Shown: piece after piece, positions 1,956 to 28,803 of the stretch
Numbering within the stretch: position 1 is the first letter of the stretch
Layout: each line of letters starts with the position of its first letter
Source: Chloroflexota bacterium
GTDB taxonomy: Bacteria > Chloroflexota > UBA11872
Length of the DNA: 64,000 nt
Direction of reading: 5' to 3'
Assembly (NCBI GenBank): GCA_022820025.1
Contig: JAJEGF010000004.1
Span: forward strand, 1-64,000
Program-made: the position numbers and the translations under genes
The notes under the pieces: generated by a model
The model's database searches: none
What the model was told of the DNA's origin: nothing
What the model saw: only the letters and a program-made list of their open reading frames with translations

Positions 1956-3536
1956 CTAGCGGGGGCGGAGGCGGGAGAGGCGGGTGGTGAGCTCGGTGAG
2001 TTCCTGGCTGGCGAGGAGCCAGGCGACGGTGAGGTAGGCGAGGACGGCGGCGGCGAGGTAGACCGCGAGGAGCAGGGCGGAGTCGAGGCCGATGGGGCCG
2101 TCGGTCCAGGTGGTGACGCGGAGGACGGCGACGACGAGGCCCATCATGGCGGTGGCGACGACGGCGGTGGCCGCGACGGATAGTTCGGCGCGGCCGATGG
2201 ACATCCCGCCGCGCCGGTGCAGGACAACGCCAAGAATGACGGCTTCAACCAGGACGCCAATTGACAGGCCAAGTGCGATACCGCCGATGCCGAACCACTG
2301 GGCCAGGAACCAGGACAGCAGCATGTGGAAGGCCAGGGACGCCGCGGCGATGGCGACGGGGGTGCGAGTGTCCTGCATGGCAAAGAAGCCGCGGACGAGG
2401 ATTTCGACGGCGGCGTGGCCGGCCAGCCCGAGGGCGAAGAAGCGGAGGGCGACGGCGGTGATCTCGGTGGCGTGGGCATCGAAGGCGCCGCGCTGAAAGA
2501 GGACGGCGACGAGGGGTTCGGCCAGGATCGCGAGAACGACTGCGGCGGGCAGGTTGAGGAAGACGATGTGGCGGGCGACGCCGCTGACGCGGGCGGCGAA
2601 GAGTTGGCGGTCGCCACCGGCCCAGCGGCCGGCAAGCTCCGGCAGGGCGGCTTCACCGAGGGCCATGCCGAAGACGCCGAGCGGCAGCAGCATCAGCAGA
2701 AAGCCGTTGTTGAGGGCCGCGACCGCTGAGGGCCCTTGCAGCGAGGCGAGGATGTTGACGTAGATGAGGCTGGCCTGGAGGACGGCGACGCCGAGAAGGC
2801 GGGGCAGCATGAGGACGATCACGCGCCGGACATCGGGGTTGGCGAGGCCCCAGGTGAATCGGAAGCGGCCCCAGGAGGCCAGACCGGGGGCCTGAACGGC
2901 CAGATGCAATACCGCGCCGATGAGGGTGCCCCAGACGAGGCCGCGGAGTCCGAAGGCCCGGGCCAGGATCAAGGCACCGATGATGATGCCGACGTTGTAA
3001 AGGAGCGGACTGATGGCCGGGGGGACAAAGCGTCGCTCGGCCTGGAGGGCGGCCTTAGCCAGGGCGCTGAGTCCGAGCAGGACCGGGGAGAGCATGAGCC
3101 AGCGGGAGGCATCGACGGCCAGGTCGTGGGTGCCGGACTCGAAACCGGGGGCGATGGCGGTCATGAGCGGCTCGGCGATGAGGGCGCCGAGCGCGGCGAA
3201 CGCGGCGGTGGCGAGGAAGACAAGGGTGGCGACACCGCTGAGGAGTTGGCGCAAGGCTTCGGGGTCGCCGCGGGATTTGACCTCGGCGTAGACGGGGATG
3301 ACGGCCGATAGCAGGGCGCCGCCGGCGAGCAGCATGAAGATTGTGTCGGGTATGCGGAAGGCGGCGTACCAGGCGTCGGCTTCAGGGCCGACGCCGAATT
3401 GGGCGTTGATGGCGGCCTGGCGGACGAAGCCCAGGAGGCGGCTGAGGGCGATGGAGGCGAGGACGATGCCGGCGGCGGCGGCGATGCCACCGCCGAGGCC
3501 GTCGGTTGTGTCGGGGCGTGGAGGGTCTGAGGTCAC
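1956..3536 (-). CDS. murJ: Lipid II flippase MurJ/MviN family
   Basis: 526 aa polytopic protein; SRLLGFVRQAAINAQFGVGPEADAWYAAFRIPDTIF is typical of MurJ. Confidence 0.93.
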   Translation of the reverse strand: MTSDPPRPDTTDGLGGGIAAAAGIVLASIALSRLLGFVRQAAINAQFGVGPEADAWYAAFRIPDTIFMLLAGGALLSAVIPVYAEVKSRGDPEALRQLLSGVATLVFLATAAFAALGALIAEPLMTAIAPGFESGTHDLAVDASRWLMLSPVLLGLSALAKAALQAERRFVPPAISPLLYNVGIIIGALILARAFGLRGLVWGTLIGAVLHLAVQAPGLASWGRFRFTWGLANPDVRRVIVLMLPRLLGVAVLQASLIYVNILASLQGPSAVAALNNGFLLMLLPLGVFGMALGEAALPELAGRWAGGDRQLFAARVSGVARHIVFLNLPAAVVLAILAEPLVAVLFQRGAFDAHATEITAVALRFFALGLAGHAAVEILVRGFFAMQDTRTPVAIAAASLAFHMLLSWFLAQWFGIGGIALGLSIGVLVEAVILGVVLHRRGGMSIGRAELSVAATAVVATAMMGLVVAVLRVTTWTDGPIGLDSALLLAVYLAAAVLAYLTVAWLLASQELTELTTRLSRLRPR

Positions 3537-3612
3537 TGCGTGTGTCCGGTCGAGTTTTGGATGGCCTTGCGTCGCGCAAAGCAGAGACTCTTACTCCGAC
3601 CGCCTCTCAGAG

Positions 3613-3887
3613 GCGACGTTCGCGTAACCCAAAGGTGGTTGCCCGGAAGACCCCTCACCGATTTCGGCCGAAGACGCCCGAATCTGCCTCTCCCCCTGGA
3701 GAGGGTGAAGAGCCGGGCGCCCCCACGAGTGACCGTTGCACAGCCCGGGGGTGGGTGCCCGAAGGACCCTTCACCGATCGCCGGCGGGGCCGGCGGCATC
3801 CCTCGGCGAACTCGGGACTGGTGCTGCCGCTCCCCCAGGAGTGACGTTTGCCTAACCCGAGGGTGGGTGCCCGGAAGACCCTCACCC
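3613..3887. repeat. Three diverged copies of a ~47 bp motif at ~112-116 bp spacing; a related copy lies at the window start (about 10-52)
   Basis: Copies at 3613 (gcgacgttcgcgtaacccaaaggtggttgcccggaagacccctcacc), 3729 (gtgaccgttgcacagcccgggggtgggtgcccgaaggacccttcacc) and 3841 (gtgacgtttgcctaacccgagggtgggtgcccggaagaccctcaccc); related to tttgcgtaaccgggggttggttgcgcggaagaccctcacccc at the window start. Confidence 0.8.
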
Positions 3888-4196
3888 GGCCGGAAGGAGT
3901 GAGTGAAGAGGAGTGAGAGGTGAGAGCAGAGGGAGCAAGCGGCGTGTGCAAGGGCCTTCAGTGGGAGCGGGAGAAAGAGCGGATGCGGCATTGAGGGCGC
4001 GGGGCGTTGTGCCGCAGTCACTTCGCGGAGAGGGAAAAGACTGCGGACCTGCTGGGAGAGGGTAGGCGTGGAACTTGGAGCCGCACCTTGGGTTGACGTG
4101 CAGGGGAGGCCTGGGACGGGGCTAAGATTGTTTGCAATGCCATCTGTGTGGGCAGCCGGGTGCCGGTTGTCGCACAGCACACCCGAAGACTTTTCC

Positions 4197-5498
4197 GTGC
4201 CGCCAAATTTCACGCCGGAAAACCTGGAGATCGTGTTTCTCTCATTCGAGGGACCGGATCAACCCTACTCGCAGGCGGGAGGCCTGGGGGTGCGGGTGGC
4301 GCAGTTCACGCGGTCGCTGGCGCGGCAGGGGTTCAACACGCACCTGATATTTGTGGGGGACCCCGAACGGCCCGGATACGAGGTGCAAGAGGACGGGCGA
4401 CTGCATTTGCACCGATGGTGCCAGTGGCTCAGTGAACATCACCGGGGCGGGGTGTACGAAGCCGAGATCGAGAAAGTTCATGATTTCCAGGACTCGGTGC
4501 CTGCTCACGTGACGTTCGAGATCGCGACGCCAGCGGTGGCGGAGGGGCGCACGGTGGTGGTGATGGCGGAGGAGTGGCATACGGCCGACGCGCTTTCGCG
4601 GCTGAGCGACTCCCTGCATTTCAACGGGATTCGCCAGAACTGCGTGCTGGTTTGGAACGCGAATAACGACATGTCGCTCAACCGCATGAATTGGGACCGG
4701 ATTGGCTACGTGGCGGACTTTGCGGCGGTGTCAAAGTACGTCAAGCACCAGATGTGGGACTGCGGGGTCAACCCGGTGGTAATTCCGAACGGGGTGCCCG
4801 AGGAGCGACTGGTGCCGGTGGATCCGGACGCGGTGGCGGCGTTTCGGCGGGCGATGGACTGCGACCTGTGGTTCTTCAAGATTGGCCGGACGGACCCGGA
4901 TAAGGGATGGCTGGAGGCCGTGGAGGCCGTCCACCGGCTGCGCGATCAGGGTGTCAACGCCCGGCTGGTGATCAAGCCGGGCGCGTATGAGGCGCATGGC
5001 GACGAGGTTTATCGGCACATGGTGTGGCGAGGGCTGGATCGCGCCGAGGTGGCGACCGAGGACCGCTCGGTGGCGGGGATTGCCACGGCGCTGGGCGCGG
5101 CGCCGGAGGCGGCGGTGCTGGACCTGCGGTTCTTCGTGCCGGACGAAATCCTGCCGGTCTTCTACGCCGCGGCGGACGGGACGCTGGCCAACAGCGGGTA
5201 CGAGCCGTTTGGTCTGGTGGGGCTGGAGGCGATGGCCGCAGGCGGGATCGCGTACGTGGGGTCCACGGGCGAGGACTATGCACGGCCACTGCAGAACTGC
5301 GTGGTGCTGGACGACGCGGCGGATCCGGACGAGATCGTGCGGTTTGCGTTGCAGTTGAAGGACGATGCGGCGCTGAATGCGTCGATCCGGGCTGGCGCGC
5401 GACGCGCGGCGGAGCTGTTTACCTGGGAAGCCGTGACACCGATATTCCTGACCCGGATGCGCCACCTGGCGGCCGGGCAGGACGTGGTGGTCGGTTAG
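4197..5498 (+). CDS. Glycosyltransferase, GT4/glycogen-synthase-like
   Basis: EIVFLSFEGPDQPYSQAGGLGVRVAQFTRSLARQGFNTHLIF N-terminus; C-terminal NSGYEPFGLVGLEAMAAGGIAYVGSTGEDY. Start uncertain (ORF opens at 4068). Confidence 0.85.
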   Translation: MPPNFTPENLEIVFLSFEGPDQPYSQAGGLGVRVAQFTRSLARQGFNTHLIFVGDPERPGYEVQEDGRLHLHRWCQWLSEHHRGGVYEAEIEKVHDFQDSVPAHVTFEIATPAVAEGRTVVVMAEEWHTADALSRLSDSLHFNGIRQNCVLVWNANNDMSLNRMNWDRIGYVADFAAVSKYVKHQMWDCGVNPVVIPNGVPEERLVPVDPDAVAAFRRAMDCDLWFFKIGRTDPDKGWLEAVEAVHRLRDQGVNARLVIKPGAYEAHGDEVYRHMVWRGLDRAEVATEDRSVAGIATALGAAPEAAVLDLRFFVPDEILPVFYAAADGTLANSGYEPFGLVGLEAMAAGGIAYVGSTGEDYARPLQNCVVLDDAADPDEIVRFALQLKDDAALNASIRAGARRAAELFTWEAVTPIFLTRMRHLAAGQDVVVG

Positions 5499-5561
5499 CA
5501 TTCGGGGAGCGCCAGCCGGCCGCCCCACCCCCACGATCGCGCACGTCCAATCGCCGACACC

Positions 5562-6749
5562 CTGGTTATCTATACGCTGATTCACCAGCCGCGACGGGTG
5601 CGTATTCCGGCGGTTCCGATTCCGCACGGGGCGGACGCGGCGACGATCGAAGCGGCGCTGTTCGACGACGAGTTGAACCAGTTCTACTTCGAGAAGGTGG
5701 CGCGCTGGTGCTACCGGCCGGCGATCAAGCTGTGGCGAGAGTTGCTGGACCGGGGGTTGGCGCTGGGGCTGGGGATTCCGTTGTCGACGCTGCCGCAGTT
5801 CGAGACGTGGGACCCAGAGCTGCTGGGTGAACTAAAGGCCCTGCTGGGTCATGCGAACTGCGAGCCGGTGGCGACGGAGCCGAATCATGCGGTGAGCATG
5901 CTGCTAGACCTGCCGCTGTTTGCGCGGGGAATGGAGCGGTCGGCCACCGGCCTGGAAGAGCTTTGCGGGCAGCGGCCGCGGGTGGCGGACACGACCGAGA
6001 TGCTGATGTCGTCGGACATTGCGCGGTCGCTGGCCCGAACGGGGTTCGAAGCCGGGTTCGTGGATGGGCGGCCGTGGATCATGGAGTGGCGGAGCGCGGC
6101 GCACCTGTACAAGGAACGGGGCGGTCTGCCGCTGCTGGCCCGGCACTTCGACCTGAGCGACGACGTGGGGTACCGGTTCTCGAACCAGGGCTGGGACGGC
6201 TGGCCGCTGACGGCGGACCGCTACGCGGACTGGATTGCTTCAACGCCCGGGGACCTGGTGACGCTGGCCTGGGACTTCGAGACGTTTGGCGAGCATCACA
6301 ACGTGGACACGGGGATATTCGAGTTCCTGGACGCGCTGCCGGACGAGCTGGCGAAGCGCGGGGTGCGCTGCCTGACGCCGAGTGGGGCGGTGGATGCCCT
6401 TGGCGGCGGCGCGCATGAGCTGCCGCTGTCGCCGTTTCCGGCCACGTGGGCGGGGCAGCACGGGGGGTTGGAGTTCTTCCTGGGGAACCATGCGCAGCAG
6501 GCGGTGTTCCGGCTGATGACGGCGGCGTATGGGACGGCGCAATTGACGGAGGATCCAGCGCTGATCGACCTGGCGTACCTGCTGTTGCAGTCGGACAACC
6601 TGCACTGGTTGCAGTGGGTCGGACGGGAAGGCTCGGAGGCGGACGTTTCGGCCTATTTCACCCCAGGCGAGTGGATGTGGTTGGGGGCGGACCGGTTGCT
6701 GTGGGAGCACCAGCGGGTGTACATCAACTTTATCGACGCGATCAGCTAG
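5562..6749 (+). CDS. Glycoside hydrolase family 57 (alpha-amylase/amylopullulanase-like)
   Basis: LVIYTLIHQPRRVRIP ... TLAWDFETFGEHHNVDTGIFEFLDALP. The ATG/GTG/TTG ORF opens at 5598, but the conserved N-terminus extends to a CTG at 5562. Confidence 0.85.
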   Translation: MVIYTLIHQPRRVRIPAVPIPHGADAATIEAALFDDELNQFYFEKVARWCYRPAIKLWRELLDRGLALGLGIPLSTLPQFETWDPELLGELKALLGHANCEPVATEPNHAVSMLLDLPLFARGMERSATGLEELCGQRPRVADTTEMLMSSDIARSLARTGFEAGFVDGRPWIMEWRSAAHLYKERGGLPLLARHFDLSDDVGYRFSNQGWDGWPLTADRYADWIASTPGDLVTLAWDFETFGEHHNVDTGIFEFLDALPDELAKRGVRCLTPSGAVDALGGGAHELPLSPFPATWAGQHGGLEFFLGNHAQQAVFRLMTAAYGTAQLTEDPALIDLAYLLLQSDNLHWLQWVGREGSEADVSAYFTPGEWMWLGADRLLWEHQRVYINFIDAIS

Positions 6750-6759
6750 CGAGGTCGGA

Positions 6760-7566
6760 ATGGACGAGGTTTACCTGGGGCCGACGCAGACGACCGTGCC
6801 GAAGATCGGGCTGGGGACGGCCCGGTATTTCGGCGGGCGGGGCGTGCTGGTGAAAGGGCTGGCGGCGGGGCTGCGGCTGATCGACACGGCGGAGTCGTAC
6901 AACGCACGGGGCGACGAACCCGGGCAAGCCGAGTTGCTGGTCGGGAAGGAGCTTGCGGGGCACTGGGATCAGACGTTTATCGCCTCCAAGATCTCGCCGC
7001 GGAACCTGGCGGCGGCCGACGTACCAGTGCATGCGCGGGCGAGTGCGCAACGGCTGGGCGTGGAGGTGATCGATCTCTACCAGATTCACGGGCCGAATCC
7101 TTCGATCCCGATTGGCGAGTCGATTGGGGCGCTGGAGCGGCTGGTGGACGAGGGGCTGATCCGGTTCATCGGGGTCAGCAACTTCTCGGCGGATCAGTTG
7201 AAGGCGGCGCAGGATGCGGCGCGGCGGTATCCGATCGTGTCGAACCAGATCCGGTACAACCTGTTCGAGCGGGACGTGGCGGACGACGTGCTGGCGTACT
7301 GCCAAGAGACGCAGGTGACGGTGATTGCACATACGCCGCTGGCGCTGGCGGACTTTGACGGTCACGCGGGGTCGGGGGTGTTGCACGAGGTGAGCCGCAG
7401 CACCGGTCGGACCCCGGCGCAGGTGATGTTGAATTGGCTGGTGGCGCAAGACGGGGTGATTGCGATTCCGAAGACCGACCGGCCGGAGCGGGTGGCGGAG
7501 CTGGCCGGATCGGTGGGCTGGGACCTGGATGCGGAGCAGCGCCGAGCGTTGGATGCTTGCGCCTAG
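6760..7566 (+). CDS. Aldo/keto reductase
   Basis: KIGLGTARYFGG...RLIDTAESYNARGDEPGQAELLVGKEL; VIDLYQIHGPNP; GVSNFSADQL. Confidence 0.92.
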   Translation: MDEVYLGPTQTTVPKIGLGTARYFGGRGVLVKGLAAGLRLIDTAESYNARGDEPGQAELLVGKELAGHWDQTFIASKISPRNLAAADVPVHARASAQRLGVEVIDLYQIHGPNPSIPIGESIGALERLVDEGLIRFIGVSNFSADQLKAAQDAARRYPIVSNQIRYNLFERDVADDVLAYCQETQVTVIAHTPLALADFDGHAGSGVLHEVSRSTGRTPAQVMLNWLVAQDGVIAIPKTDRPERVAELAGSVGWDLDAEQRRALDACA

Positions 7567-7593
7567 CGCAATCCGCTGAGCCATAGGACGGAA

Positions 7594-8805
7594 TTGACCT
7601 CAATGCGGATTGCGATGGTGGTCTGGGAGTACCCGCCGCACGTGGTGGGCGGGCTGGGGACGTACTCCGGCGCGATGGCGCCGGCGCTCCGGGCGGCGGG
7701 ACACGACGTGCAGGTGTTTGCGGCGCTGCGGGACGGTGACGCGCCGGCTCCGCAGCCGGACACGCATTGGGCGCGCCAGTTGGACCTGAGCCCGACGTAC
7801 CTGGGGGTCTACAACCAGGAGGCGTCGAGCTGGGGGGCGTTCTTCGGGGAGTTGTACTCGACGAACATTCTCTGGGCCGACGCGGTGCGGGCGGAGCACG
7901 ACAGGGAACCGTTTGACGTAATCGCGGTGCATGACTGGCTGGGGGCGCCGGCGGGGTTGACGCTGGCGCGGCACGTGGACGCGCCGATCGTGCTGCACGT
8001 GCACAGCGCCGAGTGGGGACGGCAGCCGGGCGGGCCTTCGCCGATCGTGTCGCGGTGGGAGACTGCGGCGGGCCGGGCGGCGGCCGCGACGATCACGGTG
8101 AGCCAGGCGATGGTGCGGGACCTGATCGCGCACGGCTGGGACGCGGAGCGGGTGCACGGCGTGTGGAATGGGGTGGACACGGAGAAGTTCTCGCCGGACG
8201 CGCCGGGCGGGCGGGAGCTACGGGCGCGGTACGGGTTGCCTGTCGATGCGCCGGTGGTGTTTTTCATTGGCCGGTTGACCGGAGTGAAGGGTGCGCAGCC
8301 GCTGGTGGAGGCCTGGCCGCAGGTGGTGGCGCGGCACCCGGAGGCCCGGCTGGTGGCCCTGGGGACGGGCGATCAGGACGAGGAGATTCGGGGGCTGGTG
8401 GCGGGGCTAGAGATCGACGACTCGGTCACGCTGCGGACGGAGTGGGTTTCGGAGACCGAGCGTATTGCCCATTTCGCGGCGGCCGACCTGGTGGTGTTGC
8501 CATCAACCTACGAGCCGTTTGGGATCGTGTGCCTGGAGGCGATGGCCTGTGGGAAGCCCGTGGTGGTTGGGGCACGGGGCGTGGTTGGCTTTCGTGAGCA
8601 GGTGCTGAATTACGGCCCGAATCAGTGTGGGGTGCATGTGAATGGGGCGGATGCGGCGGACATTGCGTGGGGGATCGCTGAGGCGCTGCGCGACCAGGAA
8701 CGGATGCGGCGCTGGGGCGAGAACGGGCGGCGGCGGGCGGTGGAGACGTTTACCTGGGAGAGGTGTGCGGCAAGGACGGTGGAGGTGTACGGGCGGGTCG
8801 TATAG
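7594..8805 (+). CDS. Glycosyltransferase family 4 (glycogen/starch-synthase-like)
   Basis: MRIAMVVWEYPPHVVGGLGTYSGAMAPAL; VFFIGRLTGVKGAQPLVEAW; PSTYEPFGIVCLEAMACGKPVVVGARGVVGFREQV. Confidence 0.92.
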   Translation: MTSMRIAMVVWEYPPHVVGGLGTYSGAMAPALRAAGHDVQVFAALRDGDAPAPQPDTHWARQLDLSPTYLGVYNQEASSWGAFFGELYSTNILWADAVRAEHDREPFDVIAVHDWLGAPAGLTLARHVDAPIVLHVHSAEWGRQPGGPSPIVSRWETAAGRAAAATITVSQAMVRDLIAHGWDAERVHGVWNGVDTEKFSPDAPGGRELRARYGLPVDAPVVFFIGRLTGVKGAQPLVEAWPQVVARHPEARLVALGTGDQDEEIRGLVAGLEIDDSVTLRTEWVSETERIAHFAAADLVVLPSTYEPFGIVCLEAMACGKPVVVGARGVVGFREQVLNYGPNQCGVHVNGADAADIAWGIAEALRDQERMRRWGENGRRRAVETFTWERCAARTVEVYGRVV

Positions 8806-8852
8806 ATGGTGGCGCTGCGCGGGACTACGTTGCTCGTCGGCGTTGACTCGGA

Positions 8853-9089
8853 CTAGAACGAAGACGGCGGGTCGTCGCGCTCGGAGACAGCAGTCAGCGA
8901 TATGCGGATCAGACCGCTTGCCAGGCGGACCTGGGTCAAGGCGTCCACGTTCGCCTCAAGTGCGCGAATCTCAGTGCGCAGGTCTCGGATGTCGGACTTC
9001 AGCCAGGCCAGCGTCCCGCCCACGACGGCCAATTGCAGAGGTAGCACGATGCCGGCGATGGCCAGCAGATCGGCGGTTTCGAGGGTCAG
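8853..9089 (-). CDS. Small membrane-anchored coiled-coil protein
   Basis: TLETADLLAIAGIVLPLQLAVVGGTLAWLKSDIRDLRTEIRALEANVDALTQ. A candidate CTG start at 9089 overlaps the upstream TGA (CTGA); the canonical-start ORF opens at 9047. Confidence 0.55.
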   Translation of the reverse strand: MTLETADLLAIAGIVLPLQLAVVGGTLAWLKSDIRDLRTEIRALEANVDALTQVRLASGLIRISLTAVSERDDPPSSF

Positions 9090-9571
9090 GGAGCAGGCTC
9101 GCGGGCGACCGGCTCAGGAACCGGACCTCCGAGACGGGCCAGGGCCTGCGCCATTTCGTACTGGCGCTCTTCCATCCTATCGAGGCGCGTGTCCATCCTG
9201 TCGAAGCGGGCGTCCATTCCGTCAAGGCGGACATCCATCCTGTCGAGGCGGACATCCATCCTGTCGAGGCGGGCATCAATGCCATCGAGGCGGACATCAA
9301 TGCCGTCGAGGCGGGCGTCAATGCCGTCGAGGCGGGCGTCAACGCTGTCGAAGCGAGCATTGATGGCGTCGAAGCGCGCATCCAACTCAGCCCGTAGACC
9401 GCGCAAGGCCAAAGCCTGCTCGGCGCGCAGATCGCGAAGGGCCTCAGCCTGCTGCTGGGCCATGAATTCGAGACGGGCGTTAAGGCTGCGCCAGATGGCG
9501 ACAGCCAAGCCAGCCAATCCAACAAACAGGGCCCCGCCCGTGCCCAGAATCGTCCACGCTTCGGCGCTCAT
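9086..9571 (-). CDS. Membrane-anchored protein with near-perfect 7-residue tandem repeats (coiled coil)
   Basis: MSAEAWTILGTGGALFVGLAGLAVAIWRSL... then (RLDGIDA/RLDRMDV)n; ATG at 9571 rather than the ORF start at 10489, which lies antisense to the AAA gene. Confidence 0.75.
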   Translation of the reverse strand: MSAEAWTILGTGGALFVGLAGLAVAIWRSLNARLEFMAQQQAEALRDLRAEQALALRGLRAELDARFDAINARFDSVDARLDGIDARLDGIDVRLDGIDARLDRMDVRLDRMDVRLDGMDARFDRMDTRLDRMEERQYEMAQALARLGGPVPEPVAREPAP

Positions 9572-9724
9572 GCGGCGACGCTCCGGCGGGGTCGGGCATC
9601 GGATCCAACGTATCACACGCACTAGACCTATCGCCCTGTCTTGACACTTTCGACACCACGAAGGCTGCAAGCCAAGCCCGGGGTTAGCCGGGCGCGCGCC
9701 TAGAATGCGGGCGGCGCGTGGTGG

Positions 9725-12007
9725 ATGAGCCTGGTGATGCAGAGTTTTCTGAGGTCCCTGTTTGGCGCGGAGGATGCGGTCGAGGGTCGTGGCGGCCCGG
9801 CGGGCGATGGGCGCGCGGTGTTTGGGGAGCACATCGTGCTCGAAGACTCGGCGCTCGCGATCCTGGGGGAGCGGTTTGCGCGGCGGGACCTGGGAACGGG
9901 GCGGTTTCGGGCCGTGCCGGCGGAGGTTCGGGAGGAGCTGGGCGGATTCGGGGACGAGGCGCCGGATGCGTCGCGGCTGGTGCCGACGCGGGACGAGGTG
10001 TTCATTCGGATTACAGCCTCGATGGCGGAGATTTTGCAGCGGATGGCGCAAATCGAGGCGAATCCGCACCTGCGGACCTTTGTGCTGCTGACCGGGCCGA
10101 CGGGCTGCGGCAAGACAACGATGGTCAAGACGTATTGCCACCTGGCCAATGAGCCGTGCGTTGAACTGACGTTCAGCGGCGATACGACGCTGGCGGACTT
10201 TTTTCAGCGGACGGAGGTCGTGCGGGGCGATACGGGGCAGTCGACGGTGGCGGCGTTGGGGCCGGCGGTGCAGGCGATGTTGCACGGGCACAAGCTGCTG
10301 ATCAACGAGATCAACATGCTGCCGCCGGACCTGGTGAGCGCGCTGACGCAGGCGATGGATACGGGGCGGCTGGTGATCTCGGGCACTGACCTGGGGAACA
10401 TCGAGATCGAGGTGCATGAGCAGTTCGGGGTGTTTGCGACGGCCAATCCGAATTACGTGGGGGCCGCGGAGATCGGGCGGGCGCTGCAACGGCGGTTCGG
10501 CTGGGGGCTGGGGGCGATTCCGATGGGATTTCTGCCGCCGGAGGAGGAGGCCGACGCGGTGGCCTTCGAGTTCGGGCGGCTGGAACTGGCGGAGGCCTTG
10601 GACTTGAGGGCCAATCCTTCAATCGTGGAGCGGCTGGTGGGGGTGGCGAGCCAGTTGCGCGGGCACGCCGAGTTGGGCGGGGCCATGCGGGACCGGATTT
10701 CGACTCGCTCGCTGGTTCACTGGCTGGCGCTGGGGCACGCGACGGGACTGCCGCTGGCGGAGATCGGGGCGCAGGCGGTGCTGTCGATCGCGCCGGACGA
10801 CCTGATGCAGCCGGTGGCGGAGACGACGCGGCAGGCGCTGGGTCGGGCGGTGGCTTCGACGGCCTATCCCGAGGAACTACAACAGGCCCTGTTGGATATC
10901 GAACGACCGGATGCGGGCGCGGCTATCCCGCTGCCACCGCCTATGCCAGCAGCCGAGTCCCCGGCGGTCGATGACGGATCCGGGGCATCGCTGGATCTGT
11001 CCGATGGACGGACGGTGCGAATTCGAGCTCGGGCCGACCGACCGCCAGTCGTCGAAACCACGAACAGTGTCAACGGTGCGTCAACGGACGAACTGCGGCG
11101 GGCACTGAGAACGGAGTACGGATTGAACCTAGCGTCGTCGCTGGGACACGTTCCGCCGACCAGCAGCGTGCTGCCGTGTCTGACGGCGTCCAGCTGGCAG
11201 GCGTTGCGGCTGACGCAGGGGGCGCTGGTTGCGGGGCGGCCGGTGTTCCTGCGAGGGCCGACGGGCTGCGGGAAGTCGGCAATGGCGCGGACGCTGGCGC
11301 ACCTGTGGAATCTGCCGGCAGTCGAGTTCAGCCTTACTGGCGAGACCAGCAAGACGGACCTGACGGCGGCGCGGCGGCTGACGGGTGGGGCAACCTCGTG
11401 GTCGATCCAGGGATTCCTGGAGGCGGCCAGCGAGGGGCTGTTCGTGATCGTGAATGAGTACAACCTGGCGTATCCGGACGTGCACTCGATCATCAACGGG
11501 CTGTTCGACAAGGGCGGCCGGCTGCTGCTGCCGGACGGGCGGGTGGTGCACGCGCATCCGGACTTCCGGCTGGTGGCGACGGGGTTTGCCGAGGGTCCGG
11601 GCGTGAAGCCGCTGAACGAGGCGGTGGAGAACCGATTTGGGGCGGTGATCCGGATGGAGTATCCGCCGCTTGAGGAAGAGGCGGCGATCCTAGCGTTCGT
11701 GGCCGACGAGGCGATCGATCCGGCGTTGCTGCATTCGGCGGCGGAGCTGGCTGGTACGGGGCGCGCGATCCTGTCGGGCGCGTGGGACCGGGACGCGCGT
11801 CACCCGCTGAACGACGTGCCGGCGGACCTGGCCGGGGCGGCGGCCGAGCGGGTGAGCCTAACGACGGCCGAACTGGTGACCAGCGCGCGGGCGGGGGACG
11901 ATTCGTCCACGTTTGTGCGCTGGTTGCGGCGGGGGGTGCTGGACGGAGCCGGGGACGACATTCGCGCGGTGCTGGAAGCGACGCTGGCCGGCTATGGCCT
12001 GGTCTGA
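9725..12007 (+). CDS. Tandem AAA+ ATPase (MoxR/midasin-like, two AAA modules)
   Basis: Two P-loops: LLTGPTGCGKTTMVKTYCHL and LRGPTGCGKSAMARTLAHL; Walker B regions KLLINEINML and LFVIVNEYNLA; sensor-like VFATANPNY. Confidence 0.88.
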   Translation: MSLVMQSFLRSLFGAEDAVEGRGGPAGDGRAVFGEHIVLEDSALAILGERFARRDLGTGRFRAVPAEVREELGGFGDEAPDASRLVPTRDEVFIRITASMAEILQRMAQIEANPHLRTFVLLTGPTGCGKTTMVKTYCHLANEPCVELTFSGDTTLADFFQRTEVVRGDTGQSTVAALGPAVQAMLHGHKLLINEINMLPPDLVSALTQAMDTGRLVISGTDLGNIEIEVHEQFGVFATANPNYVGAAEIGRALQRRFGWGLGAIPMGFLPPEEEADAVAFEFGRLELAEALDLRANPSIVERLVGVASQLRGHAELGGAMRDRISTRSLVHWLALGHATGLPLAEIGAQAVLSIAPDDLMQPVAETTRQALGRAVASTAYPEELQQALLDIERPDAGAAIPLPPPMPAAESPAVDDGSGASLDLSDGRTVRIRARADRPPVVETTNSVNGASTDELRRALRTEYGLNLASSLGHVPPTSSVLPCLTASSWQALRLTQGALVAGRPVFLRGPTGCGKSAMARTLAHLWNLPAVEFSLTGETSKTDLTAARRLTGGATSWSIQGFLEAASEGLFVIVNEYNLAYPDVHSIINGLFDKGGRLLLPDGRVVHAHPDFRLVATGFAEGPGVKPLNEAVENRFGAVIRMEYPPLEEEAAILAFVADEAIDPALLHSAAELAGTGRAILSGAWDRDARHPLNDVPADLAGAAAERVSLTTAELVTSARAGDDSSTFVRWLRRGVLDGAGDDIRAVLEATLAGYGLV

Positions 12008-19635: not shown

Positions 19636-19655
19636 GTTCGTTTATTGTCCGGTAC
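19636..19655 (+). promoter_or_regulatory. Candidate LexA operator upstream of lexA
   Basis: GTTCGTTTATTGTCCGGTAC: GTTC-N7-GTCC; shares GTnCGTnTnTTGTnCGGTA with the dinB upstream site. Confidence 0.5.
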
Positions 19656-21137: not shown

Positions 21138-21174
21138 GTTCGTCTTTTGTCTGTACGTCTTTTGTACGGTATAC
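21138..21174 (+). promoter_or_regulatory. Two overlapping candidate LexA operators upstream of dinB
   Basis: gTTCGTCTTTTGTctGTACGTCTTTTGTACGGTATAC: GTTC-N7-GTCT and GTAC-N7-GTAC, with direct repeat CGTCTTTTGT at 15 bp spacing. Confidence 0.5.
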
Positions 21175-22498: not shown

Positions 22499-23056
22499 AT
22501 GTCGCGACTGCCCGATCAGTTTGGTGACCTGCTGCGCCTTGAAGCGGCCAGCGGTCACGCCACGGCGGAGGCCGGCAGAACCGGAACGTTCGGGAGCCGA
22601 ATGGCGATGGCCAGGCTTGGCCGCCTGTACCGATACGCTCTTCGACATCCGGCTGCCGGTCGGGATCAGGTGCTTCGGGACGTGGCCCGCCAGACGTTGC
22701 GTCACGGCGCGTCGCACATACTGGGCCGCCGAACGCGCGAGGCGCGGCTCTTCGTCAGTTGGGGCCATCAAGTTCATCGTGAGGTGTTCGCGGCGCGCGC
22801 CGGCGTTCAGTTTCAGCCGGGGCGCGCCCCGCACGAACTCGTGGCGACCTGGAAGTTCACGTTTCCGGTTGTCGATCTGGTCCTCAGAGACCTGCATCGG
22901 CGGATGCGCGACCACACCCTGGTCATTGAAGACGGGTCCCGCCGATACGTGCATGACGGATGCGGTATCCGGTTGGAATCGAGGAGTTCGCGCACCGTCC
23001 TGGGACCGTCGCGACAGCTTGGTGAACGCACGCCGCCGCTCTTCGTCTCAACGTAG
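22499..23056 (+). CDS. Hypothetical protein in the SOS region
   Basis: Open frame MSRLPDQFGDLLRLEAASGHATAEAG... downstream of dinB on the same strand; AAAGGAG-like SD just upstream (ggaaaggagcgtccaatg). Confidence 0.6.
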   Translation: MSRLPDQFGDLLRLEAASGHATAEAGRTGTFGSRMAMARLGRLYRYALRHPAAGRDQVLRDVARQTLRHGASHILGRRTREARLFVSWGHQVHREVFAARAGVQFQPGRAPHELVATWKFTFPVVDLVLRDLHRRMRDHTLVIEDGSRRYVHDGCGIRLESRSSRTVLGPSRQLGERTPPLFVST

Positions 23057-23190
23057 ACGGCCGCCGTATATGGCGCCAGCGTCCGGGAGGTCGGCCGCGG
23101 CGACGCGCCGCCAGGGTGATACCATCTCGGGCGTCAGGCCGTGCGGATTGTGCGGCCTGCGTCACGGGGGGCAAGGATGAGCTTGTCTCC

Positions 23191-24288
23191 GTGCGCATCG
23201 TTCGCTCTCTGCAGGGTCGCGCCCGTCTCGCCATAGCCGCGGGCTTTCAGCTTGGCGCGCGCCCGGCAGCGCTCCCGCCCGTACAGCGCGACCGCTTTCG
23301 TGCGCTCACGCACCAAGCGTTCGCGGACGTCCTTGAGCAGTCGACCCGCGCGGGATGCCAGGGGATTGTTTTCGGTCAGGGCCTGTTTGCCGAAACGCCG
23401 CCGTCACTCGAAGACGCGCGGGCCGCGATGGCTCCGCTCGGAATCGCGCGGCGTAGGGGAATGACGGTCGTAGCGATCAGTGACCCGTCACGCCAAGTTT
23501 CGGACGGCACGGATTTCCTGGCAGACGTCGGTCTCGTCGACGCGCTGCTGACCGCACATGGCCCCGGGGCTGTCGTGGCGCCGGTCGCCGACCTTCAGAT
23601 CGGCCTGGTGACTGGCGGCGCCTTGGCTGCTGGCGGCGACGCGGATTTGGTCATCGAGATTTCCACCGGTGAGAGCCAAAGCGCCGGACGCTCGTTGCCT
23701 GCCGGTTCCGCCGACTTGGTTGTCGATACCGGCGCTGATCGTGCCCCGCCCGATCGCCTCGACGATGTTCCCATCGTTGCGACGGGGTGGGCCGGCCCTT
23801 CGCTTGACGGGCGCGCGGAGCCCGGCTTTGTGATCCTGGATATCGACCCGGCGGCTGGCGCGACGCCTTCGTTCGTGCCGACGGAAGTTCTGCGGCCCGC
23901 CCGGCTTTCGTTCGCTTCGCCGCGTTCGGGCAGCGAGGTGGCGAGCTTGATTGCGCCGGCATTGGGCACGGCCGGCATCCTGGACGTTGAGCTGCACGGT
24001 CAGATGTCGCGCGCCGCCTGGCACGAACTCGATCCGCCGCGCCTGGTTGAACAGGCGGCCTCGGCGGGCACGCTGCTGCGTTTTGCCATTGACGAATTGC
24101 ACGTTGCCGACTCCCAACACCACGCCAGCGCCTCGACCCGAACATCCTTCCTGGTCAATGCCAGGCGCGTCAGCGACCGACTCCTGGCCTCGGCTGACGA
24201 TGACAGCGAGCGAGCGTTGGTCGCTGCCGCGCGGGCGCACGTGGCCGAGGTTGCGCGACGCCGCGAACCGACGAAGGCCGTGACGTGA
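23191..24288 (+). CDS. YhaO/SbcD-like metallophosphoesterase-fold protein with degenerate active-site motifs
   Basis: LAIAAGFQLGARPAALPPVQRDRFRALTHQAFADVLEQSTRAGCQGIVFGQGLFAETPPSLEDARAAMAPLGIARRRGMTVVAISDPS aligns by eye to the YhaO N-terminus, but DxH, GDxxD and GNHD are absent. Confidence 0.55.
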   Translation: MRIVRSLQGRARLAIAAGFQLGARPAALPPVQRDRFRALTHQAFADVLEQSTRAGCQGIVFGQGLFAETPPSLEDARAAMAPLGIARRRGMTVVAISDPSRQVSDGTDFLADVGLVDALLTAHGPGAVVAPVADLQIGLVTGGALAAGGDADLVIEISTGESQSAGRSLPAGSADLVVDTGADRAPPDRLDDVPIVATGWAGPSLDGRAEPGFVILDIDPAAGATPSFVPTEVLRPARLSFASPRSGSEVASLIAPALGTAGILDVELHGQMSRAAWHELDPPRLVEQAASAGTLLRFAIDELHVADSQHHASASTRTSFLVNARRVSDRLLASADDDSERALVAAARAHVAEVARRREPTKAVT

Positions 24289-27272
24289 TCTTTCTCGAGC
24301 GATTGGTCGCCCATCACGTGGGCGAGATTGAGGACGCGGATATCGCCTTTCTGCCGCGCGGCCGTCATCTCATCGAGGCGACGCCCGAGGCGGCGGCAAC
24401 GCTTAGCGCCGCGCTGCGTTGCGCGCTTTTTGGCGACGTGGCGCCAGGGTTTGGCCAGCGAGAGGGTGCGCTGGTGGGTGCGTCTATCGTCGCCGGCGGC
24501 GCGGCCTATGCCATCGAGCGGCGAATCGCGCCGAACGGTCGGCTCACGACGTTGCTGGCACGAGGCGGGCCGTCGGGCCTGGTGCCGGTTGCGGGCGGCG
24601 AGCGCATCGAACGCGAATTGGAGCGCGTGCTCGGCGCCGACATGGAAGCACTAGCCGCGCTTATCTGGCCCCCGCACGACCTGGAGCCGTTGACGGGCCG
24701 GTTGCGCGACGTTGTTCGCGCCTGGCTCGGCTCACGACGAATGAATGTGCTGGCCGCCAGCGTGGAGGTGAGCCGGGATCTGGAGGAAGCCGAGCGCCTG
24801 GCGTCGCTGCACGTCGCGCTGGCCAAGGCGGCCGAGGCCAACAACGCGGCCGCCGCCGAGGTTCAGCGGCTTGCGTACGTGCGCAGGCGCGACCGGGCCG
24901 CCCGCGCGGTTCATCAGCTTGAGGAGGCCGAACGGCTTGTCGCCGAGGCCGAGGATGAGCGTCTGCGCATGCTGACCGCGGCCCAGGGACTTGAACGTCA
25001 TGTCGAACAGGCCGAGCGCGCCCTGGCGCTGGCGCACCTGCTGGACCATCGAGACTCCGCGATGCGGCGGCACGAGGCAGCGCGGACTCGGCGAGTCGAG
25101 TACGAGACGCAGGCTGCTGAACTGGTCAACGTGCGCTCCACGTTGACGACAAGCGAACGGCGATTGACAACGCTGGACCGCGGATTGGCCGCGTATGACC
25201 GAGCGGACGCCGCCGCTGCGGCCGCAAAGCAGGCACGGAATGCAAGTTCGTCCATCGGCGAGGACGTGGCCGCTCTGGAACGCGCACGGCAGGAGCTCTC
25301 GGCCAGCCGGAGCAAGGCCGAACGCCTGGCCGCCCAGGCAAAGCGCACGCGAACGCTCAGTGACCGGGCACGCGACGAATCCCACCTGCCAGCGGCGCAT
25401 CGCCTCTGGCGCGTGTGGCTGGAGCATGCGAATGACAACGACGACAACGCGGACCGGGCCGAGAGCGAAGCGGCAACGCTCCACGATCAGCTGAACACCC
25501 TGGAGGCGGCGGTCCGCACCCAGGAGCAGGATGCCCGGCTGCGGGCGAGTTGGCGGCGGTTGGCTGCCGGTAGTGCGGTGGCTGGCCTTGGCGCGGGCGT
25601 GGTTGGGCTCCTGGCCGTCGCTCCGCTGGCGCCGCTGGGCCTCTCCGTGGGCCTCGTCGGCACACTGGCCGGCATCTGGCTGACCCTGGCGGAACGTGGC
25701 AGCGGCGATAGCGTGGACGAGTTGGAGCGCGAACTGGACACCGTGGCCCGTGCGCTTCGGCAGACGGAACAGCGAAGGCAGGCTGCCGCCGACGCACGGA
25801 ATGTGCGCGTTCGCATCGAGAACCAGCTCGAGCAACTGGGACTGGAAGTCCCAACCGACGCGCAGCGGGCCCTGGTGCTCCGCGACAGCGCCACGGCTCG
25901 TTTGCGCCAACTGGCCGACGGCGACGGTCGACGTGAGTCGCAAGAGCTCCGCCAGGAAGCCGCGACCGCGTCACAGGCAGCCGAGGATGCCGCGCGGGAG
26001 GTTCGGCGTTTGGAGGCGCGCGTGGCGACCTTGCATCGCCGTGACCCTGAACAGCAGCAGGTCGCTGCGGCGGCCGAGCGACGCACACAACTGGAGCGAG
26101 CGGCCAGCGCCCGGCGGGCGGCGGAACGCCTGGCCGGCGAACTGCAGATCGGGACGTCGCGGGAAGCCATTGAACAGTCGCGACGTAACACGTTGCGAGA
26201 GGTTCAGGATCTGCAGCAGCAGTTGAGCGGCGCCGCGGATCTGGAACTCAAGCGGCAGGTCGCCTTGCGGGACGAGACTCGAGTTAACGACGAACTTGCC
26301 GCGTTGGTCGCCGAGATATCGGCGCGGTTCGACGAACAATCCGAACGTGCGCCGGATCGGGCGAGGGCCGTGCAGATTGCGCAGATCGCGGCCGTCGTCG
26401 CCCAGGTTGGCGGCGACCGAGCCCACAGCGCCGCGCGCGGCGCGGCCCAGCGCGGCCGCACCGTCCACGCGGCTTCGAGGCGACACTCGACCGATCTGGC
26501 GGCGGCTCTGCGGGCGCTGGCGGTTGACTGCGACGCCGATCCAACGTCGGCCGAAGCGCGAGCCGCCATCCCGGACCTGGACGCCGACCCGATCGGAGCC
26601 GAAGAGATTCGCCGCTCGCTGCGTCGGGCGCGCGAGGCGGCGCGCCGGACCGAGACACGCGTGCAGACGCTGGAACTGCGGGCCGGCGTGGAGTGCACAG
26701 ACATTGACCCCGACGATGCCCACGACCGCCTTGACCGAGCCTTGCGTGCGCGCAGGATTCGCGAGATCGGCCAGACCATTGTGCGCGGCGCCCTGGACGC
26801 CTCGCTGGAGAGCTTGCCGGCCTCAATCGAGCACGAGTTGCGGAGCATCCTGCCGGCCGCCACCGCCGGCCGCTTCTGGGACGCCCGCTGCGGTGAGAGT
26901 CTTTGCGTGGAAGTCTGGGACCCGCGAGCAGCCGCGTGGCGAGCGCCGGTCGACCTGGATGGCCGGAGCCGCGAGCACGTGGAGCGGGCATTTGCGCTGG
27001 CCTTCGCGGTTGCCGGTCCGCCGCTGGACGCGACGGACTTGCCGGCCTTTATCTGGCTGGAACAGTCGGCGACGGATCACGATGGCGAGATCCTGCAAGC
27101 CGTGGCGGCGGCTGCCAGCCTGGGCGGAGCGGCGCAGCGCTATCCGCAGGTTATTGCCACCGGACAGTCGATCAGGCCCGGCCTCGGCCGATTCGATCGC
27201 GTGACTTCCCTGACGGACGGGCACGCTTCTGACGCAGCGACGACCATCAGCGGCATCCGTGAGGCCGGGTAA
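24285..27272 (+). CDS. YhaN/SbcC-like long coiled-coil protein with central hydrophobic segment; no canonical Walker A
   Basis: IAFLPRGRHLIEATPEAAATLSAALRCALFGD sits where the GPNEAGKST P-loop is expected; long Arg/Glu/Ala coiled coil; central hydrophobic stretch LAAGSAVAGLGAGVVGLLAVAPLAPLGLSVGLVGTLAGIWLTL; C-terminal LDGRSREHVERAFALAFAV and LPAFIWLEQSATDHDGEIL in signature and Walker B positions. Confidence 0.65.
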   Translation: MIFLERLVAHHVGEIEDADIAFLPRGRHLIEATPEAAATLSAALRCALFGDVAPGFGQREGALVGASIVAGGAAYAIERRIAPNGRLTTLLARGGPSGLVPVAGGERIERELERVLGADMEALAALIWPPHDLEPLTGRLRDVVRAWLGSRRMNVLAASVEVSRDLEEAERLASLHVALAKAAEANNAAAAEVQRLAYVRRRDRAARAVHQLEEAERLVAEAEDERLRMLTAAQGLERHVEQAERALALAHLLDHRDSAMRRHEAARTRRVEYETQAAELVNVRSTLTTSERRLTTLDRGLAAYDRADAAAAAAKQARNASSSIGEDVAALERARQELSASRSKAERLAAQAKRTRTLSDRARDESHLPAAHRLWRVWLEHANDNDDNADRAESEAATLHDQLNTLEAAVRTQEQDARLRASWRRLAAGSAVAGLGAGVVGLLAVAPLAPLGLSVGLVGTLAGIWLTLAERGSGDSVDELERELDTVARALRQTEQRRQAAADARNVRVRIENQLEQLGLEVPTDAQRALVLRDSATARLRQLADGDGRRESQELRQEAATASQAAEDAAREVRRLEARVATLHRRDPEQQQVAAAAERRTQLERAASARRAAERLAGELQIGTSREAIEQSRRNTLREVQDLQQQLSGAADLELKRQVALRDETRVNDELAALVAEISARFDEQSERAPDRARAVQIAQIAAVVAQVGGDRAHSAARGAAQRGRTVHAASRRHSTDLAAALRALAVDCDADPTSAEARAAIPDLDADPIGAEEIRRSLRRAREAARRTETRVQTLELRAGVECTDIDPDDAHDRLDRALRARRIREIGQTIVRGALDASLESLPASIEHELRSILPAATAGRFWDARCGESLCVEVWDPRAAAWRAPVDLDGRSREHVERAFALAFAVAGPPLDATDLPAFIWLEQSATDHDGEILQAVAAAASLGGAAQRYPQVIATGQSIRPGLGRFDRVTSLTDGHASDAATTISGIREAG

Positions 27273-28027
27273 TGCTCGCATCGGAGACCAACGACCGCGT
27301 GTCGCAGCAACCCATCGCCCGCCGTCGACCTCGCGGGGAACGCCGCTCGCCGGCGCTCAATCGACCCGGTGACCGCAGGGCGCCTGACGCCAGGGTCTCG
27401 CGCCGCAGGTCGACGTCGAATGACCTGGACAGCGCGGATTCCAGGCAAGCCATTCAGATACGACGCGACGACGTCACCCGGCAGTCGAAAGCGGCGGCCA
27501 AATCGCCCACACGGCGAACGCATCGTCCGAAGCGCCCGCGAGTCGCCGCCGCCGCACGCAGTGCAGGCGATCCCGACAGCCAGCTGCAGTTGACGTTAGA
27601 CCTCAGCGACCCGGAGCCACGCGGCTACGAGGCCTCCGCCGCGGCACCGCGCGAGCGGATTGACGCCACTCGGTGGCTCTGGCTGGCCATGGGCATGGGC
27701 ACGGCGGCCTGCCTCCTCCTCTTGGGTTTCCAACTTGTCTTCACAGATCCCGCGCACGGGCTCAATGTCCTGGCCGTGGTGGTCACCATGTCCTTCGGCG
27801 CGCTGTTCGCCACGTGGACGTTCGAGTACTGGCTGCGGCGCGGCGCCGCCACGCCGCCGAAGGTTCGAACGTGGGCGCTCACCCGGCACGCCGTTCTCGT
27901 GTCCGTGGGCGTGGCCGCCATGGCCGTAAGCGCCCTGAATCGCACCGCGAGCTTCGGTCTGCTGCTCCTGGTGATCTTGACGCTGATCGTGGCCGACATC
28001 GTGCTGCGCCGGCTGCGCATCCGGTAG
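27272..28027 (+). CDS. Integral membrane protein with long basic, disordered N-terminus
   Basis: N-terminal ~120 aa rich in Arg/Ser/Pro, then about four hydrophobic segments; ATG overlaps the upstream TAA (TAATG). Confidence 0.7.
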   Translation: MLASETNDRVSQQPIARRRPRGERRSPALNRPGDRRAPDARVSRRRSTSNDLDSADSRQAIQIRRDDVTRQSKAAAKSPTRRTHRPKRPRVAAAARSAGDPDSQLQLTLDLSDPEPRGYEASAAAPRERIDATRWLWLAMGMGTAACLLLLGFQLVFTDPAHGLNVLAVVVTMSFGALFATWTFEYWLRRGAATPPKVRTWALTRHAVLVSVGVAAMAVSALNRTASFGLLLLVILTLIVADIVLRRLRIR

Positions 28028-28803
28028 TGCGCGGTGAGAGGTCAGACGATCCCTACGCGCGAATAGCCGACCTGTACGAGGCCGAGCACCGCGGCTGGAC
28101 CGATGATCTGGATCTGTACCGCGCGCTGGCGGCGCGCGCCGGCGGTCCAGTGTTGGAACTGGGCTGCGGCTCGGGCCGTGTGGCCATCGCCCTGGCCGAG
28201 GCCGGGCACATCGTTCATGGCGTCGACACGTCGGAGGCCATGCTGGCTATTGCGCACACGAATCTGGGCTCGCGCCGATTGCCGGTGAGTTTCAGACGTG
28301 GCGATATGAGGCACGCCAGCGGTCACGCCGAGTTCGGCCTGGCGTTCTGCGCGCTTGACGGACTCCTTCACCTGCAATCCGCGGCTGACGTTCACGACAC
28401 ACTGCGCGCCGCCCACCACGCTCTTCGGCCGGGCGGGTTGCTGGCCGTCGACGTCGTCAACCCGTCACCCGACCGGCTGGCGATGCGTGACGGTGTGGTT
28501 CGGCACCAGTCGACCTTTGCCGGGCCGGGGGACGCGGAGATCACGCACTTCGTGTCCTGGGAAATCGATCCCGACGCTCAGACCATCGATACGGCGCACT
28601 TCTACGACGCGCTGAGCGACGACGGAGCGGTGCGCCGGCGCACAACGGCGTTCCGGCTGCGCTACCTGGAACGGGACGAGCTGGAAGCCGCACTGCAAAC
28701 CGCCGGGTTTGACCGCCCGGAGGTGTATGGGAACGCCCAACTCGATCCCTTCGAGCCCGACAGCGACCGCATGATTCTCGTCGCAACCAAGTCCACCGCG
28801 TAG
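28027..28803 (+). CDS. SAM-dependent class I methyltransferase
   Basis: Frame of ORF 27673..28803; GTG at 28027 overlaps the upstream TAG. ARIADLYEAEH...GGPVLELGCGSGRVAIALAEAGHIVHGVDTSEAML. Confidence 0.9.
   Translation: MRGERSDDPYARIADLYEAEHRGWTDDLDLYRALAARAGGPVLELGCGSGRVAIALAEAGHIVHGVDTSEAMLAIAHTNLGSRRLPVSFRRGDMRHASGHAEFGLAFCALDGLLHLQSAADVHDTLRAAHHALRPGGLLAVDVVNPSPDRLAMRDGVVRHQSTFAGPGDAEITHFVSWEIDPDAQTIDTAHFYDALSDDGAVRRRTTAFRLRYLERDELEAALQTAGFDRPEVYGNAQLDPFEPDSDRMILVATKSTA

Follow-up and report, generated by a model that had tools for sequence, protein, structure and literature searches.

The stretch of 64,000 nucleotides analysed here (the window; contig 74 of genome G000, a Chloroflexota MAG) carries, downstream of lexA and dinB, a cassette of four genes, the first two of which resemble a nuclease–ATPase pair but lack its catalytic motifs. 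The locus raises the question whether this pair is decaying, is still enzymatic in some other way, or has been retained for a different function together with the two genes that follow it.

Architecture and conservation of the cassette

All cassette features lie on the forward strand. An SbcD/Mre11-like pseudonuclease (23191–24288; 365 aa, GTG start, TGA stop) is followed by an SbcC/Rad50-like pseudo-ATPase with a long coiled coil (24285–27272; 995 aa, GTG start, TAA stop), a membrane protein, MEM (27272–28027; 251 aa, ATG start, TAG stop), and a SAM-dependent methyltransferase, MTase (28027–28803; 258 aa, GTG start, TAG stop). In the ORF calls and the sequence, consecutive genes are joined by GTGA (24285–24288), TAATG (27270–27274) and TAGTG (28025–28029), so the four overlapping ORFs of an earlier note on this DNA had been placed correctly to the base. 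The long intact frames of about 366 and 995 aa reported there were found as 365 and 995 aa, without internal stops in relatives. The SbcD-like start at 23191 is also that of the homologues in the alignment, although an ORF begun at 23116 would be longer. The uncharacterised upstream ORF of the earlier note is a conserved 185-aa frame (orf185, 22499–23056) that separates dinB from the cassette and matches DUF4130 weakly (0.003; 1.4e-7 in a sister-genus homologue).

Relatives were grouped into the family of the window (f1; two genera, 19 genomes), its sister family f2 and the outgroup families f3 and f5. The whole cassette is intact in all 19 f1 genomes with order and strand kept, and the gene order also holds in four f2 genomes. 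Since the 4-nt overlap of the SbcD-like and SbcC-like genes is found at 18 of 18 measurable f1 loci, while the MEM and MTase junctions overlap at nearly all loci (exceptions G001 and G002), the translational-type overlap in the cassette is not chance. In G002 short gaps replace the overlaps; in G001, 939 nt lie between SbcC and MEM (L057 6929–7870). The SbcC-like gene is present as a single copy in each f1 genome, and its products are 31–96% identical and free of internal stops. Complete f1 copies vary little in length, from 994 to 1005 aa for the SbcC-like and from 365 to 376 aa for the SbcD-like protein. The downstream neighbours in f1, named from reading their sequences, are AAT, a 113-aa protein, tmk and an R3H-type gene.

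Four of the five f2 genomes carry the cassette, which in two of them is truncated at a contig end; AAT is adjacent there as well, and tmk and R3H are adjacent in two genomes. Within the order, 23 of 24 genomes have the MEM family, against none of the 17 others in the class, and an orthologue of the cassette MTase is found in 22 of the 24 (the G005 contig ends before it, and G019 has no cassette). The 96%-complete f2 genome G019 (L100) is without MEM, cassette or cassette MTase orthologue and keeps a YhaO/YhaN-like pair.

Homology of the pair and loss of catalytic motifs

No Pfam or NCBIfam family was assigned to the SbcD-like protein, the SbcC-like protein or MEM. In profile comparisons, the SbcD-like protein matched intact MPE nucleases with an hhalign probability of 98.5 over 309 columns, and an f1-only profile of the SbcC-like protein matched intact YhaN/SbcC with a probability of 98.4 in the C-terminal head only. 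With mixed profiles including sister-family and outgroup members, the best PDB matches of the SbcD-like protein were Mre11 (3.8e-11), and with a mixed profile the top PDB match of the SbcC-like protein was Rad50 3qf7 (1.1e-14); the homology of its N-terminal head leans on the f2 sequences. The AlphaFold models, built on alignments of five close sequences, are poor (pLDDT 42 and 51), so that fold retention rests on the profiles. Foldseek placed Mre11/SbcD at places 1–15 and Rad50 at place 1 with these low-confidence models, all at E values above 0.001, and serves as support only. The low-confidence SbcC-like model predicts helices at residues 167–860 with a break at 426–453, and the protein may have a bipartite head joined by a long antiparallel coiled coil. 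The likeness to Mre11/SbcD and Rad50/SbcC that the earlier note had read from the sequence was thus recovered, and the cassette pair are remote homologues of these proteins.

The note had described the two proteins more specifically as an apparent YhaO/YhaN pseudoenzyme pair. The remote homology without motifs stands, but the clade does not: in a maximum-likelihood tree, in which the program flagged long branches, the f1, f2 and third-type SbcD sequences are united (100/99) against YhaO and SbcD. The third type comprises the intact pairs of f3 and f5, and in a phylum-wide sample of 251 genomes, 25 have homologues of its nuclease. The YhaO/YhaN label was rejected on account of this third clade and of the genome's own intact YhaO/YhaN on contig 10, where YhaN keeps GPNESGKS. 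Since G000 also has an intact SbcD/SbcC pair on contig 34, general nuclease functions are covered elsewhere in the genome.

The claim that both proteins lack catalytic motifs proved correct throughout the family. All 19 f1 SbcC-like proteins have a deletion at the Walker A lysine column of the alignment; in the window, the former Walker A site (24378–24401) reads ATPEAA-AT against GxxxxGKST and the former Walker B site (27045–27068) AFIWLEQS against GFLFLDEP. No Walker B LDE, signature or H-loop was found in the f1 motif columns. In all 18 f1 SbcD-like proteins the motif set DxH/GD/GNHD/GHxH is absent, MPE motif III (GNHD) is deleted and zero or one of eight metal ligands (motifs DxH, GD, GNH, H, GHxH) is left. 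The residues at the former catalytic sites vary freely.

The f2 proteins are degraded in part. Walker A is kept (GPNEAGKSS, GAQDNGKSS) in the two SbcC-like members having that region, with LDD for LDE, no H-loop and a degenerate signature, and the f2 SbcD-like proteins have GN for GD, GDGD or GDKD for GNHD, no GHxH and one to two of the eight nuclease ligands. Among nine outgroup genomes of f3 and f5, DxH, GD, GNHD and GHxH are present in nine of nine third-type SbcD proteins, the single-histidine pattern finding no match in two f5 sequences. Walker A, Walker B and the H-loop histidine were reported by pattern in eight outgroup SbcC ORFs and the signature in seven of these. Outgroup G040 illustrates the intact state, with TADNHLN, CGDLFDT, GGNHDSP, LTHSSIEG and LGHVHA in SbcD and GRNEAGKST, FSGGTQDQ, FLFLDEP and LLISHSQ in SbcC. 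Catalysis was lost stepwise, from intact outgroups through f2, which keeps Walker A, to f1, where Walker A is deleted too, and a conversion to pseudoenzymes is well supported at the level of sequence.

Selection, membrane features and the methyltransferase

Pairwise dN/dS was calculated by the Nei–Gojobori method for pairs with usable dS (one near-identical pair, dS 0.01–0.02, was unusable). The values are 0.18–0.33 for the SbcD-like gene, 0.18–0.28 for the SbcC-like gene and 0.18–0.26 for the MTase; for MEM they are 0.24–0.36, with 0.83 in one very close pair. Among neighbours dinB gave 0.11–0.20 and lexA up to 0.07, and intact paralogues in the same genomes gave 0.11–0.27. Selection on the SbcD-like and SbcC-like genes is purifying and in the range of the intact MTase, and both lack stops and frameshifts, in agreement with the view that they are not in simple decay. 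An isolated decaying copy is ruled out by the 19 intact f1 genomes together with dN/dS in the purifying range. Homologues are neither rare nor frameshifted in f1. Sister taxa with intact motifs beside one decaying copy, which the earlier note had considered as an outcome, were not found in full: f2 is partly degraded, and full degradation is fixed across the 19 f1 genomes.

The position of the strongest constraint differs between the intact and the degenerate SbcC proteins. Between f3 and f5, the heads of intact third-type SbcC are 41–78% identical and the coils 18–29%, while between the f1 genera the heads of the SbcC-like protein fall to 32% and the regions flanking the apex hairpin reach 48–59%. 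The flank before the apex (25335–25418, residues 351–378) is the most conserved part of the protein with 59%, and the flank after it (25797–25964, residues 505–560) has 48%. Conservation has moved from the ATPase head to the flanks of the apex hairpin, and this shift is the best sign of repurposing as opposed to decay.

By hydropathy, a hydrophobic hairpin lies at the coiled-coil apex of the SbcC-like protein (25557–25694, residues 425–470), and one such stretch at about residues 420–470 is found in all 19 f1 proteins. It also occurs in f2 G020 and G023, in intact f5 pairs and in G000's own YhaN. Hydropathy gave no hairpin for f2 G021 or for most of the f3 outgroup genomes tested, so that anchoring in the membrane is not a universal trait. 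In MEM, about four TM segments lie from residue 135 onward, and the N-terminus is rich in Arg in genus g1. The membrane tether of the earlier note finds support in the apex hairpin beside a 4-TM partner, but not as a general property of the cassette.

The MTase matches Pfam PF13649 (1e-18) with an intact SAM-binding motif, LELGCGSGR. The third-type pairs of f3 (L145, L150, L152) are followed by a conserved TIM-barrel isomerase-like ORF and an MTase with a zinc-ribbon-like N-terminus. Because an MTase lies beside these intact pairs, the third-type pair and a methyltransferase may have become associated before the cassette arose. A reading as an anti-phage defence system was dropped, as PADLOC gives it no support: its models of known defence systems matched none of the SbcD-like protein, the SbcC-like protein and MEM, and the MTase matched only the methyltransferase part of mad2.

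A scaffold reading and its alternatives

Since catalytic residues were lost while selection persists, the machine seems to have turned into a non-enzymatic scaffold. The best reading, to which we give about an even chance, is a membrane-anchored pseudo-Mre11–Rad50 scaffold working with the 4-TM protein and the MTase. We propose that the ancestor was a third, catalytically complete Mre11–Rad50-like nuclease–ATPase pair of the class, which would have been converted stepwise to a pseudoenzyme complex. The SbcC-like protein would have kept head remnants, its long coiled coil and, at the apex, a hairpin likely inserted in the membrane, and the SbcD-like protein a degenerate phosphoesterase domain. 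The pair and the 4-TM protein would likely make up a scaffold, anchored in the membrane and independent of ATP, by which the intact MTase is positioned or regulated, possibly on DNA or envelope targets. The sequences show homology, motif loss and its order, conservation, purifying selection, synteny and the shift of conservation to the hairpin flanks; we infer complex formation, membrane insertion, the absence of ATP binding and cleavage, and MTase coupling. The link of the MTase to the SMC-like pair is suggested by gene order only. The broader statement, that an Mre11–Rad50-type machine was repurposed as a nucleotide-independent, membrane-anchored MTase scaffold and that living intermediates show the order of loss, is tentative and has clearly less than an even chance.

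With the intact third type of f3 and f5 the cassette shares the gene order, overlapping or adjacent genes for an MPE and an ABC/coiled-coil protein, and the SbcD tree position. It differs in having no metal-ligand or ATPase motifs, in the additional 4-TM protein and a different MTase, and in the length of SbcC (995 aa compared to 1121–1293 aa in complete outgroup copies). With YhaO/YhaN it shares the four-base overlap and the hydrophobic apex hairpin, as seen in the genome's own YhaN, but the clade differs. In B. subtilis its counterpart is SbcE, an SMC-like protein that is reported to act in DSB repair and competence (cited in PMC4205851). When MRN acts in signalling as an ATM activator, Mre11 nuclease and ATP hydrolysis are dispensable and the coiled coils are needed (PMC3642328); Rad50 ATP binding is still required there, whereas the SbcC-like protein has no P-loop.

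A search of open-access papers found no pseudo-SbcCD and no earlier Mre11–Rad50-type complex with two inactive halves that are yet conserved together. Inactivated phosphoesterase subunits are already known. Dpb2 of DNA polymerase epsilon is an inactivated calcineurin-like phosphoesterase subunit (PMC7308368) and, like the cassette protein, retains the dead fold structurally, but it is a eukaryotic polymerase subunit without a Rad50-like partner. Since active ancestor type, intermediate and inactive form all survive among relatives, a structural role without cutting or ATP cycling could be shown, and the system could show how a two-enzyme machine becomes a scaffold. The cassette spans about 5.6 kb of DNA and is directly testable by expression.

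The main rival, which we consider rather unlikely, is that the pair acts as a regulatory pseudo-subunit: it would enter hetero-oligomers with SbcCD or YhaO/YhaN, both intact in the same cell, and hold them back or direct them to targets. Two intact pairs do coexist in the genome, SMC-like coiled-coil proteins often dimerise, and a LexA-box-like motif before intact sbcD and not before the pseudo pair would fit a constant modulator. However, the pseudo pair forms a separate clade with divergent coils, and its strongest constraint flanks the apex, not the head. That the pair is still enzymatic with non-canonical active sites, using another nucleotide or other metal ligands, is improbable: the frames are constrained and new chemistry would escape motif searches, but the Walker A lysine and GNHD are deleted in every f1 member and the former sites vary freely. 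It is most improbable that the pair are relics drifting in an operon retained for the MTase. Both evolve faster than lexA or the adjoining aminotransferase, but the low dN/dS, the steady lengths and the open frames of all 19 genomes, in which even copies with 31% identity have no internal stop or frameshift, argue for constraint.

It is also quite improbable that the cassette is a DNA-damage module induced by the SOS response under common control with lexA and dinB, the neighbours that the earlier note had pointed out. In most of f1 the cassette directly follows dinB and orf185 on one strand, and read-through is possible. In upstream alignments, a LexA-box-like motif, GTTCGNNNNTTGTNCGGTA, inferred by comparison and thus putative, precedes lexA (14 of 14) and dinB (15 of 15) across the family, at 19636–19654 and 21153–21171 of the window, but no copy was found before orf185 or the SbcD-like start of the cassette. 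The DNA flanking the f2 cassettes yielded no homologue of lexA or dinB. The SOS neighbourhood is secondary for these two reasons, and the claim holds for position only. In the whole genome, 11 sites matched the motif with at most one mismatch, compared to 2 for the reversed control. These sites precede genes that we take, from our own reading of the translations, to be intact sbcD, radical-SAM, DUF72-like, IrrE/ImmA-like peptidase, mutS and helicase-like genes. The motif outlines a putative SOS regulon of this lineage (G000 contigs 34, 36, 54, 55, 62, 91 and others). GC skew is strongly positive (about 0.2) across the 10 kb at positions 2001–12000, which sets them apart from the remainder of the window.
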